Of a stretch of 64,000 nt of DNA, positions 2,523-49,188 are shown in pieces (the stretch's first letter is position 1; the number at the start of each line of letters is the position of its first letter). The stretch lies in NCBI RefSeq assembly GCF_011745145.1, contig NZ_CP050191.1, positions 2,619,054-2,683,053 on the forward strand, written 5' to 3'. Both the position numbers and the translations under genes were made by a program. This stretch comes from Mycobacterium sp. DL440 (GTDB lineage Bacteria > Actinomycetota > Actinomycetes > Mycobacteriales > Mycobacteriaceae). A model generated the notes under the pieces. The model saw only the letters and a program-made list of their open reading frames with translations. It had not been told where the DNA came from and searched no databases.

Positions 2523-3293
2523 ATGACGGTCTTGATCGAAGATCCGCTGATCGCGGGTATGGCTATCGAGCGGACGCTGCCGCTGCACGAGTCGAGTCGG
2601 CGTCTACGTGAGCTGTACGCGGAGTGTCCGCGGGTCTACGGCGTGGCCGTGGTGGGCGACCTGTCGCGCCGGCGGTGGTGGCCTCTGACCGAGGCGCTGT
2701 CCGCCGATCGGTTGCAGGGGATGTTCGACGCCGCGATGGCCGAGACGGGCAATCGGGCCGCGGTGGCCCAGCAGCTGGCCGCCACGTTCACCCATGTGGT
2801 CATCGGTCGGGTGGTGCCGCTCCTGGTACTCGAAGGACGCGCCTGGGACACCGGTCTGGAGAACCTGTGGGTCCACGTCGACTCCGAGGGTGCGATCGAC
2901 TGGGTCGGTGTCGTGGACCCGACCCTGCGCGGCCTGCCGGGGGATCCGTGCTTTTCCGGCCGGGCCGCCCGGCTGGCCAGTGCGTCCCGTGACGGGATCG
3001 TCGCGTTGCCCAGTGAGGCGGCGTTGACGACGTGGGTAGCCCATCGCAGCCATCGGGCGCTTGAGCCGTTGTTCGCCCGCTTGGTCGAGATCAGTGACGG
3101 CGCGATTTCGGCCGCGGCCATGTGGCACATGGTGGGCGCGGCTGTGGTCGGCGCGGCCACCCAGGTCCCGCTGCTGGCCGGGTCGAGTGAGGTCGTGAGC
3201 ATGAGGCGCGGGCAGGCGGTGCTCGATGCCCTGGTCGGTTTCGGCCTGCCGGTCCGGGGCTGTGGCCGGGCGGGGAAGGTCTTGCTTAATTAG
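2523..3293 (+). CDS. IdeR-box-controlled protein, weakly FhuF-like (possible siderophore-iron reductase relative)
   Basis: A 256-residue soluble protein. The ATG at 2523 follows GGAGG at 2515-2519. I do not recognise it firmly. The overall pattern, with a central region around VVIGRVVPLLVLEGRAWD and an end reading LVGFGLPVRGCGRAG, recalls the FhuF siderophore-iron reductase family. The C-terminal Cys-Cys...Cys-x-x-Cys cluster that binds 2Fe-2S in FhuF is absent; only one Cys remains near the end. The gene sits behind a good IdeR box, and its TAG stop (3291-3293) lies inside the next IdeR box. An iron-starvation role is inferred from regulation; the reductase activity is doubtful. Confidence 0.5.
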   Translation: MTVLIEDPLIAGMAIERTLPLHESSRRLRELYAECPRVYGVAVVGDLSRRRWWPLTEALSADRLQGMFDAAMAETGNRAAVAQQLAATFTHVVIGRVVPLLVLEGRAWDTGLENLWVHVDSEGAIDWVGVVDPTLRGLPGDPCFSGRAARLASASRDGIVALPSEAALTTWVAHRSHRALEPLFARLVEISDGAISAAAMWHMVGAAVVGAATQVPLLAGSSEVVSMRRGQAVLDALVGFGLPVRGCGRAGKVLLN

Positions 3294-3308
3294 GATAGCC
3301 TTGCCTAG
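3290..3308 (+). promoter_or_regulatory. IdeR (iron) box of the MrsI small RNA
   Basis: TTAGGATAGCCTTGCCTAG matches 15 of 19 IdeR consensus positions. A possible -10 hexamer TAGTAT (3306-3311) overlaps its right end, so bound IdeR would block transcription of the RNA that follows. Confidence 0.75.
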
Positions 3309-3317
3309 TATGTAGAT

Positions 3318-3414
3318 ACGAGGCTAACGGACCGTGCCGGAGTCCTGAGGGCTGCAGAGACCCCCGGTCCGCTCGAGGGCGGGTTCCGCGTTTGATACGC
3401 GGGACCCGCCCGCA
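3318..3414 (+). ncRNA. mrsI: MrsI iron-sparing small regulatory RNA (predicted)
   Basis: There is no good reading frame here, but strong structure. Stem CGGACCG/CGGTCCG (3328-3334 with 3365-3371) encloses a loop containing TGAGGGCTG (3346-3354), and a 14-base-pair terminator hairpin follows (3377-3411). From the likely -10 the transcript would start near 3318 and run to about 3414, roughly 100 nt. The position between blaI (Rv1846c) and the Rv1847 homolog, and the IdeR box, match MrsI (ncRv11846), the published IdeR-controlled sRNA of M. tuberculosis that represses non-essential iron proteins such as bfrA. The loop motif is exactly complementary to the bfrA leader at 48682-48690. Ends are inferred. 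Confidence 0.75.
3377..3411 (+). terminator. intrinsic terminator of MrsI
   Basis: Hairpin of 14 pairs: GGGCGGGTTCCGCG, loop TTTGATA, CGCGGGACCCGCCC, with one G-U wobble. ATCTTTG follows. The U run is short, as is common in mycobacteria. Confidence 0.75.
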
Positions 3415-3449
3415 TCTTTGTGGCGATACGGCGTGTAGACACGAGGGCT

Positions 3450-3851
3450 GTGACCACTGAAACCCCTGAAGGCTTGGGCAAAGGCTTCGACACCGAACTG
3501 GGCCTGACCTACCTCGAGCTCACGCCCGACGGCGGCCGCGCGCAGCTGACGATTCACGACAAGCTGCTGCAGCCCTGGGGCATCGTGCACGGCGGCGTGT
3601 ACTGCTCGATCGTCGAGAGCCTGGCCAGCGTGTCGGGCCACATCTGGCTGTCGGAGAACGGCGGCGGCACCGTGGTCGGGGTCAACAACAACACCGATTT
3701 CCTGCGCGCCATCGGATCCGGCACTGTCACAGCGGTTTCCACGCCGATCCACCGAGGTCGTCGGCAGCAGCTGTGGCTGATCACCATCACCGACGAGAAC
3801 GACAAGCTCGTGGCCCGCGGTCAGGTGCGACTGCAGAACATCGCCGAGTAG
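3450..3851 (+). CDS. PaaI-family hotdog thioesterase (Rv1847-like)
   Basis: A 133-residue single hotdog-fold protein, probably hydrolysing an acyl- or aryl-CoA thioester. The signature PWGIVHGGVYCSIVES covers the family catalytic/substrate loop; the second half has VVGVNNNTDFLRA and the ribbon around TPIHRGRRQQLWLI. GTG at 3450 is preferred over GTG at 3420: it gives the compact family N-terminus, and the earlier one lies only 9 bases after the MrsI hairpin. The gene is the immediate upstream neighbour of ureA, as Rv1847 is in M. tuberculosis, but no link to urea use is evident. Confidence 0.85.
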   Translation: MTTETPEGLGKGFDTELGLTYLELTPDGGRAQLTIHDKLLQPWGIVHGGVYCSIVESLASVSGHIWLSENGGGTVVGVNNNTDFLRAIGSGTVTAVSTPIHRGRRQQLWLITITDENDKLVARGQVRLQNIAE

Positions 3852-4537: not shown

Positions 4538-6255
4538 CCGAGCTGACCCGTGCGCGCTACGCGGCGCTGTTCGGCCCGACCGCCGGTGACCGGATCCGGT
4601 TGGCCGACACCGACCTTTTCGTCGAGATCACCGAGGACCGCAGCGGCGGACCCCGGCACGCCGGTGACGAGGCGGTGTTCGGCGGTGGCAAGGTACTGCG
4701 CGAGTCGATGGGCCAGTCGAGGGCAACCCGCGCGGACGGCGCACCGGACACCGTCATCACCGGTGCGGTGATCATCGACCACTGGGGAATCATCAAGGCC
4801 GACATCGGGATCCGTGACGGACGCATCGTGGGGATCGGTAAGGCCGGCAATCCCGACATCATGACCGGGGTGCATCCTGCGCTGGTCGTCGGTCCCTCGA
4901 CCGAGATCATCGGGGGCAACGGCCGCATCCTGACCGCGGGCGCGATCGACTGTCACGTCCACCTGATCTGTCCGCAGCTCATGGCGGAAGCACTCGGCGG
5001 CGGCATCACCACGATCGTGGCCGGCGGAACCGGTCCGGCCGAGGGCAGTAAGGCCACCACGGTCACCCCGGGCGCCTGGCACCTGGCCAGAATGCTGGAG
5101 TCGCTCGACTCCTGGCCGCTCAACGTCGCGCTGCTGGGCAAGGGCAACACCGTCAGCGCCGAGGCGATGTGGGAGCAGCTGCGCGGTGGCGCAGCGGGAT
5201 TCAAGCTGCACGAGGACTGGGGCACCACGCCCGCGGCTATCGATGCCTGCCTGACGGTCGCCGAAGCCGCCGGGGTGCAAGCCAACATCCACACCGACAC
5301 CCTCAATGAGGCCGGGTTCGTCGAGGACACGCTGGCCGCGATCAAGGGCCGCGGTATCCACGCGTATCACACCGAGGGCGCCGGTGGCGGGCACGCACCC
5401 GACATCATCACCGTCGCCTCGCACCCGAATGTGCTGCCCAGCTCCACCAATCCGACCCGGCCGCACACCGTCAACACCCTCGACGAGCACCTCGACATGC
5501 TCATGGTGTGCCATCACCTGAATCCGAGCGTGCCCGAGGACCTGGCATTCGCCGAGAGCCGGATCCGACCGTCGACGATCGCGGCAGAGGATCTGCTGCA
5601 CGACATCGGGGCCATCTCGATGATCGGCAGCGACTCCCAGGCGATGGGCCGGATCGGCGAGGTGGTGTTGCGGACCTGGCAGACCGCTCACGTGATGAAG
5701 GGCAGGCGTGGCGCGCTGGAAGGCGACGGTGCGGCGGACAACAACCGCGTCCGCCGGTACGTCGCGAAATACACCATCTGCCCGGCCATCGCCCACGGTC
5801 TCGACGATGAGGTCGGTTCGGTCGAGGTCGGCAAGCTCGCCGATCTGGTGTTGTGGGAACCCGCATTCTTCGGGGTGCGCCCGCACGCGGTGCTCAAGGG
5901 CGGCATGATCACCTGGGCGGCGATGGGCGATGCCAACGCCTCGATCCCTACCCCGCAGCCGGTGCTCCCGCGGCCGATGTTCGGCGCGGCGCCCGCCGCG
6001 GCGGCCGCCACGTCGGTGCACTTCGTCGCGCCGCAGGCGATCGAGGACGGTCTGGCAGATCGTCTCGACATCCGCCGAAAGCTGGCTGCGGTCAAGAATG
6101 TTCGGCGGGTCGGGAAGGCCCAGATGCCACTCAATGATGCGATGCCGCACATCGAGGTCGATCCGGACACGTTCACCGTCCGGATCGACGGGCAGGTGTG
6201 GCAGGAACAGCCTGCGGTGGAACTGCCCATGGCGCAACGATATTTCCTGTTCTGA
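4534..6255 (+). CDS. ureC: urease alpha (catalytic) subunit
   Basis: A 573-residue nickel amidohydrolase, normal length for UreC. Visible are the nickel-ligand motif [10 protein letters not shown] (near residue 140), the carbamylated lysine in FKLHEDWG (near 220), [20 protein letters not shown], and the mobile flap with catalytic histidine MVCHHLNPS (near 325). [11 protein letters not shown] carries the last metal-ligand aspartate region. All key residues appear intact. Start ATG 4534 overlaps the ureB stop. Nickel must be loaded by UreDFG, encoded directly downstream. Confidence 0.98.
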
Positions 6256-46863: not shown

Positions 46864-47619
46864 ATGACCCTGCTGATCGAGGACAACAACCGGGTTCGCA
46901 CGCTGACCCTCAACCGCCCCGACGCGCTCAACGCGTTCAACGAGGCGCTGTACGACGAGACGACGGTCGCCCTGCGTGCGGCCGCTGAGGATCCCGACGT
47001 CGCAGTGGTGCTGCTGACGGGTGCCGGCCGGGCGTTCAGTGCAGGCAACGACCTTGTCGAGATGCAGGCCCGCATCACCAACCCGGTTTTCACCCCGGGG
47101 GAGCACGGGTTCTACGGGATGCTCGAAGTGCTCGCGGACTTTCCGAAGCCGTTGATCTGTGCCGTCAATGGTGTCGGCGTGGGCATCGGCGCCACCATCC
47201 TCGGATATGCCGACCTCACGTTCATGTCGTCCTCGGCCCGGTTGAAGTGTCCGTTCACCAGCCTTGGGGTGGCACCAGAGGCGGCCTCCTCGTATCTGAT
47301 GCCACGGATGCTCGGCAGGCAGGACGCCGCTTGGCTGCTGATGTCCTCGGAGTGGGTGAGCGCGGCCGAGGCCCGCGAGATGGGTCTGGTGTGGAAGGTC
47401 TGCGAGCCCGACGAGCTGCTGACCGAGGCCAGGGGATACGCAGAAATCCTTGCGGCCAAGCCGATTTCCAGCCTGATCGCCGTGAAGCAAGCCATGATGG
47501 CACCGATCCGCGACCAGATCTCTGCAGCCGTGGAGCGGGAGAAGGCGTTGTTCGTCGAACTGGTGGGCGCGGCGGCCAACGTCGACGCGCTGGCTCAGTT
47601 CGCCGATCGCAAGCGTTAG
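46864..47619 (+). CDS. enoyl-CoA hydratase/isomerase family protein
   Basis: A 251-residue crotonase-fold enzyme. RVRTLTLNRPDALNAFNEAL, then LTGAGRAFSAGNDLVEMQ (oxyanion-hole region), KPLICAVNGVGVGIGATILG and SLGVAPEAASSYLMPRMLG are the family pattern. The catalytic glutamates of true hydratases are only partly matched (PEAASS), so isomerase or related activity is possible. ATG 46864 has GAGGAG upstream. Likely in fatty-acid or side-chain breakdown with the upstream gene. Confidence 0.85.
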   Translation: MTLLIEDNNRVRTLTLNRPDALNAFNEALYDETTVALRAAAEDPDVAVVLLTGAGRAFSAGNDLVEMQARITNPVFTPGEHGFYGMLEVLADFPKPLICAVNGVGVGIGATILGYADLTFMSSSARLKCPFTSLGVAPEAASSYLMPRMLGRQDAAWLLMSSEWVSAAEAREMGLVWKVCEPDELLTEARGYAEILAAKPISSLIAVKQAMMAPIRDQISAAVEREKALFVELVGAAANVDALAQFADRKR

Positions 47620-47831
47620 CGGGTGGCCCGCGACGGGCAACCGTTGAACTGGCTGGGGCACCCCTCGGCCGCCTGATGGGCGGCGATGATGGCGCGAATG
47701 GTGCGCCGGCAGCGTCCGCAGTCTGCGCCGGCTCCACACGCGTCGGCCACTTCTTTGGATGTGGTGGCGCCGGACTCCACGATCTCGTTGACGACTTGAC
47801 TGGTCGCTCCGGTACAGAGGCAGACGAACAT
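47616..47831 (-). CDS. bfd: bacterioferritin-associated ferredoxin (2Fe-2S)
   Basis: A 71-residue Bfd-type protein. MFVCLCTGATSQVV gives the CxC pair and ACGAGADCGRC the CxxC pair, binding a 2Fe-2S cluster; the helix-turn-helix between them is typical. Bfd docks on bacterioferritin and delivers electrons that reduce stored ferric iron for release. A Cys/Ser-rich tail of ~20 residues is extra. ATG 47831 overlaps the stop of the upstream unknown gene (TGATG). bfrA lies 880 bases away on the other strand. Confidence 0.88.
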   Translation of the reverse strand: MFVCLCTGATSQVVNEIVESGATTSKEVADACGAGADCGRCRRTIRAIIAAHQAAEGCPSQFNGCPSRATR

Positions 47832-48466
47832 CAGTCGTCCTGCTCGTCGACGTTCATGATGTAGGCCAACTTGCCCACGAACAGGCTGGGGTAGGCACCG
47901 AAGCCGGCCGTGGTCATCCACTCGGCGGCCGCGTCGGGGTGGTCGATCCACTGCCGGGCGCTGATCTCGTCGGAGACCTCCTGCAGGATCATCACTTCCT
48001 GGCCGTCGTCGAGCGCCTGATAGACCCAGATCTTGCGGATGCCGCCCTGCTCGAAGCGCTCAAGACCGTCGTGCACCTTGCGCATCAAGGTGGGAACGTC
48101 GTCGACGGTGGCCACCGCTCCCACGATCACCCCGGCCACGTGCGTCTCCGGGGACGGCTCGGTCAGATCGATTTTCTCCACCACTTCGCCGCCAAATATC
48201 GGCGGGATATCTTCGACGCCGGAAATATCGAACCACTCGAAAATTGCGGGCGAACGCAGTACGTCGCGGATGGATCGGGCGTGCCGAATGCCGATCGTCA
48301 CCAATACCCGGCCCGGTTCCCAAATTGATTTGTAAAGCACCACATGGTGGGCGCCGATCGACAACAGTCCGGAACGGTGTTTCCGCATCCATTTCCACAT
48401 TTGGTCGACGTCGTCGACGCGGAAATCGCAGGACAGGATGAGCGAGTGTAAATCGTACTCACTCAT
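47831..48466 (-). CDS. unknown protein, two ferredoxin-like repeats, in operon with bfd
   Basis: A 211-residue soluble protein. Two halves of ~95 residues each look alike: YDLHSLILSCDFRVDDVDQM leads to DVLRSPAIFEWFDISG, and HVAGVIVGAVATVDDV to ARQWIDHPDAAAEWMTTAGF, suggesting a duplicated alpha-beta barrel domain. No cofactor motif is evident. The gene starts 37 bases from an IdeR-box region shared with divergent bfrA, and its stop overlaps bfd. A role in iron storage or release is inferred from context. It might correspond to the Rv1874 region, but I am not sure. Confidence 0.6.
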   Translation of the reverse strand: MSEYDLHSLILSCDFRVDDVDQMWKWMRKHRSGLLSIGAHHVVLYKSIWEPGRVLVTIGIRHARSIRDVLRSPAIFEWFDISGVEDIPPIFGGEVVEKIDLTEPSPETHVAGVIVGAVATVDDVPTLMRKVHDGLERFEQGGIRKIWVYQALDDGQEVMILQEVSDEISARQWIDHPDAAAEWMTTAGFGAYPSLFVGKLAYIMNVDEQDD

Positions 48467-48502: not shown

Positions 48503-48526
48503 TTAGCGCAGTCTAACCTTAGTTAG
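48503..48526. promoter_or_regulatory. IdeR box region between the bfd operon and bfrA
   Basis: TTAGCGCAGTCTAACCTTA (48503-48521) matches 14 of 19 IdeR consensus positions. An overlapping outward-facing half pair CTAAC-CTTA-GTTAG ends at 48526. Two overlapping boxes upstream of bfrA occur in M. tuberculosis, where IdeR activates bfrA. The site is 37 bases from the divergent gene, so IdeR could repress that operon while activating bfrA. Confidence 0.65.
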
Positions 48527-48681: not shown

Positions 48682-48690
48682 CAGCCCTCA
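48682..48690 (+). promoter_or_regulatory. predicted MrsI binding site in the bfrA leader
   Basis: CAGCCCTCA is the exact reverse complement of TGAGGGCTG in the MrsI loop (3346-3354). With one bulged A, two further pairs (GG with CC) extend it to 11. It ends 8 bases before the AGGAG ribosome site (48699-48703), where pairing would block translation. MrsI is published to repress bfrA in M. tuberculosis. Confidence 0.6.
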
Positions 48691-48708: not shown

Positions 48709-49188
48709 ATGCAAGGCGATCCGGATGTTCTGAAATTGCTCAACGAGCAATTGACGAGCGAACTCACTGCAATTAACCAATATTTCCTGCACTCGAAAAT
48801 GCAGGATAATTGGGGATTTACCGAACTAGCTGAACACACCCGTTCCGAGTCTTTCGAAGAGATGCGGCACGCGGAGACCATCACCGACCGAATTCTGCTC
48901 TTGGACGGGCTGCCCAACTATCAGCGGCTGTTTTCGCTACGTGTGGGTCAGACGCTTCGTGAACAGTTCGAAGCCGATCTGGCCATCGAGTACGAGGTGG
49001 TCGCTCGACTGCGCCCCGGGATAATCATGTGCCGCCAAAAAGAGGATGCGACGTCGGCGCGGATCCTGGAGACGATCCTGGGTGACGAGGAGTCTCACAT
49101 CGACTACCTGGAGACTCAGCTCGAGCTCATGGAGAAGTTGGGTGACGCGCTCTATGCCGCGCAGTGCGTCTCCCGGCCGCCCCAATAA
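48709..49188 (+). CDS. bfrA: bacterioferritin BfrA (heme-containing)
   Basis: A 159-residue subunit of the 24-mer iron-storage shell; it nearly matches the M. tuberculosis protein from MQGDPDVLKLLNEQL onward. Ferroxidase ligands are E18 in LTSELTAINQYF, E51 and H54 in EEMRHAE, E94, and E127/H130 in DEESHIDYLE. Met52 between them is the heme ligand. ATG 48709 (AGGAG 6 bases before) is preferred to GTG 48703. It stores excess iron and detoxifies it. Upstream: IdeR boxes and an MrsI site; a strong terminator follows. Confidence 0.97.
   Translation: MQGDPDVLKLLNEQLTSELTAINQYFLHSKMQDNWGFTELAEHTRSESFEEMRHAETITDRILLLDGLPNYQRLFSLRVGQTLREQFEADLAIEYEVVARLRPGIIMCRQKEDATSARILETILGDEESHIDYLETQLELMEKLGDALYAAQCVSRPPQ

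Follow-up and report, generated by a model that had tools for sequence, protein, structure and literature searches.

The window analysed here, 64,000 nt from the genome of Mycobacterium sp. DL440 (G000), carries a BlaI-type gene on the minus strand (1882-2298; PF03965), followed on the plus strand by a FhuF-like gene (ATG at 2523, stop codon at 3291-3293) and an Rv1847-type thioesterase gene (3420-3851; 4HBT). The FhuF-like gene, which sources name either iron reductase or FhuF-like, has an IdeR box of its own at 2478-2496 (15/19). Its product has no match in Pfam or in NCBIfam. The cysteine pattern expected of FhuF-like proteins (CC-x8-12-C-x2-C) was found neither in it nor among the 120 homologue matches listed. 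Among the best 80 of 120 matches to the thioesterase, the closest named ones come from Mycolicibacterium septicum (99%) and M. peregrinum (98%). The space between the FhuF-like and thioesterase genes holds, in order on the plus strand, a -35-like element, an IdeR box, a -10 element, two hairpins and a short tail. A first-pass annotation had placed a small RNA here between blaI and Rv1847; the flanking genes agree with this, but the FhuF-like gene sits as an additional gene between blaI and the RNA.

The predicted promoter consists of the -35-like sequence TTGCTT (3282-3287, plus strand) and the -10 sequence TAGTAT (3306-3311, plus strand). Between them lies the IdeR box TTAGGATAGCCTTGCCTAG (3290-3308, plus strand), which scores 15/19 and overlaps the -10, as had been described; the two share three bases. 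All box scores refer to the IdeR consensus. Three sites in the window scored at least 14/19, and none in 20 first-order shuffled windows exceeded 13; the box is therefore beyond chance expectation. The stop codon of the FhuF-like gene falls within it. A transcript starting ∼7 nt past the -10 would span 3318-3419 on the plus strand, both ends being predictions, and two covariance models (R1 and R2) match the genome of the window at this element.

The 105-nt stretch 3316-3420 has a predicted folding energy of -57.4 kcal/mol, compared to -41.2 +/- 3.3 for shuffled sequences (z -4.95; 0 of 200 as good). Hairpin 1 occupies about 3329-3371 and presents the apical loop AGGGCUG (3348-3354), which is predicted to be unpaired (0.85-0.99) and which we propose as the seed. 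Hairpin 2 (3377-3411) is a terminator-like stem of 15 pairs, 14 Watson-Crick and one G-U, and is followed by the tail GCATCTTTG (3412-3420). The earlier description, ∼100 bases with two stems and a 14-pair terminator, is right as to the two strong hairpins and needs correction as to the second: it has 15 pairs, ends at 3411 and, since its tail is only weakly U-rich, makes a poor classical terminator.

The same annotation held that no protein is encoded in this interval. In many relatives the RNA body can be read through without a stop codon, one frame being open in as many as 69 of 76, so open frames are no proof for or against coding. What speaks against it is that the stems co-vary, that the loop is invariant and that the terminator loops differ in length. 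A short open frame beginning with a GTG at 3334 was rejected: it is 4 codons long, and many relatives have other letters in place of the GTG.

Conservation of the locus was assessed with the Rv1847 homologue, which matched 120 stretches, the best 80 of which were taken as named loci. The hairpin core was present 5′ of the homologue in 76 of these 80 and was not found there in the remaining four (L070, L078, L105, and L111). Within 110 nt 5′ of the core, 74 of the 76 loci have an IdeR box of at least 14/19; the two exceptions are L074, with a 10/19 box carrying a 3-nt insertion, and L082, with only 4 nt of upstream sequence in the locus. A loose pattern of TTG followed by the box was seen in 75 of 76 loci, and TANNNT stands at the end of the box in all 67 of the 76 that have the strict box pattern. 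This retention of a promoter-like -35/-10 pair at the box bears on whether the element could instead be released by processing from the 3′ terminus of the FhuF-like message, with no promoter of its own. Such an origin would fit the overlap of the IdeR box with the stop codon and the separate IdeR box of the FhuF-like gene itself, but the conserved promoter argues against it, as does a Gordonia locus (L161) where that gene is missing, blaI follows on the far side, and both box and RNA are still present. We regard it as highly improbable.

The distance to the thioesterase gene is relevant for a further reading, an iron-responsive leader of the Rv1847 homologue (attenuator) with hairpin 2 controlling read-through. 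Only 9 nt separate the end of hairpin 2 from the first possible thioesterase start codon, and the RNA and the gene are close in most named loci. However, the gap exceeds 200 nt in 14 of the 76 loci; in 13 of them the space is taken up by a frame on the minus strand that points towards the RNA and has a DVRD motif, the motif being absent in L080. A simple attenuator would also have no need of a conserved apical loop, and we find this reading very unlikely compared to a free-standing small RNA. The DVRD motif marks a rhodanese-like gene between the small RNA and Rv1847 in L064, L066, L081, L082, L084, L091, L093, L095, L101, and L107-L110, and both members scanned in Pfam were assigned to Rhodanese.

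The secondary structure is supported by covariation in two alignments. Alignment A1 was built from 57 loci kept at 95% identity, with L032 replaced by the window and L074 omitted because its terminator is lost, giving 55 relatives plus the window (56 sequences). Its 29 pairs form in 99.4% of cells, and 15 of them show double-sided changes; 115 double-change cells were counted, compared to 28.9 +/- 8.9 in shuffles, none of 500 being as good. Most of this signal comes from hairpin 2 (12 of its 15 pairs), hairpin 1 contributing three inner pairs. Alignment A3 and model R2 were derived from alignment A2 (44 rows) by removal of L166, L202, L209, and L214. In the resulting 40 more diverse sequences, which were fitted to the covariance model and are thus biased towards its structure, a bias from which A1 is free, 23 of 29 pairs show double-sided changes, including all 15 of hairpin 2. 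Here 136 double-change cells contrast with 25.9 +/- 4.0 (0 of 500 shuffles), and the signal disappears when partners are slid. Covariation with other mycobacteria, the point on which the first-pass reading had been staked, was thus found in both alignments. Of the 44 diverse matches, 43 have the loop AGGGCUG unchanged, and the adjoining stem shifts by compensatory pairs: of the three pairs next to the loop, the outer (C-G) and the inner (G-C) are invariant, and the middle U-A changes to C-G (4) or A-U (2).

The element is widespread in the genus. A blastn search with the window found it in 261 of 297 genomes, model R1 in 259 of 297, and model R2 in 339 of 396. R2 had no match in 57 of the 396, of which 40 have a completeness of 90% or more and a contamination of 5% or less; some of the 57 are complete genomes of 4.3-5.3 Mb, and loss of the small RNA in certain lineages is possible. 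Twenty genomes with no match in the initial search (19 of the genus and one of the Nocardia group) gave a best E-value of 0.0036 under laxer filters; for G075, which is among the twenty, R2 later gave 6e-4. Two loci, L074 (M. xanthum) and L213, retain hairpin 1 only, having lost hairpin 2 and gained a 3-nt insertion in the IdeR box; the small RNA gene may be decaying there or be under different control.

Matches also extend beyond the genus. In an order-wide sample, R1 matched 46 of 298 genomes: 30 belong to the same genus, 15 are spread over six further genera within the family, and one is G482. The last, the sole match outside the family, has neither the loop nor an IdeR box and was judged false. 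An IdeR box of at least 13/19 lies just 5′ of the RNA in 29 of 31 diverse or weak loci, L213 and L214 being the exceptions. In the four loci outside the genus whose genes were read, the RNA adjoins a thioesterase of the same type and an IdeR box. L160 is from Nocardia (thioesterase 91% to N. carnea) and L161 from Gordonia (thioesterase 100%); a BlaI-type gene is visible in both, and a gene of the FhuF-like type, judged by eye, in L152, L155, and L160.

The predicted main target is a ferritin gene at 48709-49188 on the plus strand (Ferritin PF00210, E 8.4e-34), which we take to be bfrA from the start of the known protein. Its leader contains CAGCCCTCA (48682-48690, plus strand), a perfect complement over 9 nt of UGAGGGCUG in the small RNA (3346-3354). 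This site stands 8 nt ahead of AGGAG, just 5′ of the ribosome-binding site, and is partly paired within its own leader in the predicted fold. An IdeR box (14/19) lies at 48503-48521, ∼206 nt 5′ of the start codon. Comparison was made in 29 leaders, obtained from 34 genomes with a bfrA match by taking 30 loci and dropping L294, where no start was found. All 29 have an IdeR box of 13-16/19 upstream, compared to 9-13 for one shuffle each; box and start codon are 204-209 nt apart in 20 leaders and 116-240 nt apart in the others. The box of the window falls between bfrA and two minus-strand frames that face away from it and together span 47616-48466; one (47616-47951) is BFD-like [2Fe-2S], and the other (47831-48466) overlaps it and has no Pfam match.

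The loop complement CAGCCCT occurs no more than 40 nt from the bfrA start in 17 of these 29 hand-chosen genomes, which are weighted to near relatives and related to each other, so the 17 are not independent. The shorter CAGCCC is present in 4 more, and neither in 8. As a control, 314 further RBS-like sites were taken from these 30 loci, and CAGCCCT was found at 2 of them. The 7-mer is common by itself, with 10 occurrences in the window against 8.1 expected, and its position rather than its presence therefore counts. A broader sample drawn before, with 30 ferritin-like loci, had CAGCCCT in 2 of 13 BfrA-like and 0 of 17 other loci; set against 17 of 29, this suggests that the bfrA site is confined to some members of the genus, or that weaker pairing takes its place in the others. 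Across the genome of the window, the seed-plus-RBS pattern gave 32 matches, 30 of which were retrieved as loci, and the reversed control 71, which is no enrichment. In three of the 32 the match continues over the full 9-mer, namely bfrA and two starting frames of 149 and 125 aa. Two CAGCCCT-plus-RBS matches in the same genome (L261 and L262) begin cytochrome P450 genes; these are possible further targets, as heme proteins would fit, but two cases are no evidence in a set that is not above chance.

According to published descriptions, MrsI (ncRv11846) is encoded between blaI and Rv1847 and induced in low iron; the small RNA is ∼100 nt long and has an IdeR site, a seed given as 6 or 6-8 nt and a 7-nt loop (PMC11188477, PMC8628891, PMC12101431, PMC9410917, PMC7029489, PMC3388012, PMC10986025, PMC10470900, PMC9132128, PMC7308464). 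Its length is given as 100, 102 (by coordinates, H37Rv 2096766-2096867) or 106 nt (PMC8628891), and bfrA, hypF, and fprA are its reported targets. Set beside these accounts of MrsI in M. tuberculosis and M. smegmatis, the element agrees in its blaI/Rv1847 site, promoter IdeR site, length, predicted terminator, 7-nt apical loop and pairing with bfrA. It differs in the extra FhuF-like gene and in the absence of hypF from the genome. The MrsI identity proposed in the first-pass annotation is thereby supported, with hypF as the exception, and on sequence grounds the element is very probably an orthologue of this IdeR-repressed, trans-acting small RNA.

The comparison is with MrsI as it is described in print, the 7-nt loop included. 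A different IdeR-controlled small RNA sharing only the address of MrsI would be compatible with that, but it would also have to share control, length, the described loop and the bfrA target, as published (PMC11188477, PMC8628891, PMC12101431); such a coincidence is barely credible. Rfam had been named earlier as a check on the MrsI assignment. Rfam 15 contained no family matching 3290-3414 at gathering score, mir-612 (E 3.6) being the only entry returned for 2900-3800, and phage records gave no match.

As to hypF, the genome of the window has no match above cut-off. In 20 hypF loci from 17 genomes of relatives, CAGCCC was absent from the 80 nt 5′ of the gene in all cases and lay at 89-153 nt in 4. 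hypF is therefore not supported as a target here. It is a published target and not a defining feature of MrsI.

The element is probably switched on in iron shortage and would then turn down an iron-storage protein. What the sequences show is the anatomy, the covarying structure, the conserved loop and box and the bfrA complementarity; that the RNA is transcribed, that IdeR binds the box, that loop and leader pair in vivo and that translation is affected, we infer. With iron present, IdeR bound over the promoter would keep the small RNA off. With iron absent, IdeR would leave and an RNA of ∼100 nt would be made, ending at hairpin 2; its exposed loop AGGGCUG would pair with mRNA leaders, bfrA first, just ahead of the ribosome-binding site. 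Pairing might block translation or speed decay, so that BfrA would be lost and iron spared. According to a review, IdeR boxes overlapping a promoter go with repression, and those of bfrA and bfrB lie further upstream, bfrB being activated by IdeR (PMC9132128). The box of the small RNA is of the promoter-overlapping kind that this review links to repression (PMC9132128). The far-upstream box of bfrA has the arrangement that the review connects with activation, so iron shortage would reduce bfrA in two ways simultaneously. RyhB, PrrF, FsrA, and IsrR are likewise described as repressed by an iron sensor and lowering iron-rich proteins (PMC9410917), although their sensor is Fur instead of IdeR.

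This kind of RNA is already known; what is added is the copy in this window, the support from covariation and the broader distribution. The portions of the literature searched for Rhodococcus (MrsI; iron/IdeR small RNA) and for Nocardia homologues contained no statement on MrsI outside mycobacteria. On balance we favour an old RNA of the whole Mycobacteriaceae in the GTDB sense (Nocardia, Gordonia, four further genera, and Mycobacterium) over a mycobacterial invention. It would stand under an IdeR box, with the loop AGGGCUG frozen, both hairpins drifting by compensatory change and targets rewired around the fixed loop. The two-route IdeR/MrsI switch of bfrA would then belong to part of the family only, and the IdeR-box FhuF-like neighbour would be a frequent partner gene. 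One review states that for mycobacteria no Hfq or ProQ homologue is described (PMC7308464), and presence in Nocardia and Gordonia would make target recognition by a fixed loop with no known chaperone testable in laboratory actinobacteria. As no Rfam family matched, the covariance model and the invariant loop offer a way to annotate MrsI and predict its targets in many species. Elsewhere in the window, Rfam reported 5_ureB_sRNA at 4696-4990 on the minus strand, with 46.7 bits against a cut-off of 40. The urease alpha gene lies antisense to this match, which may reflect only the conserved coding strand.
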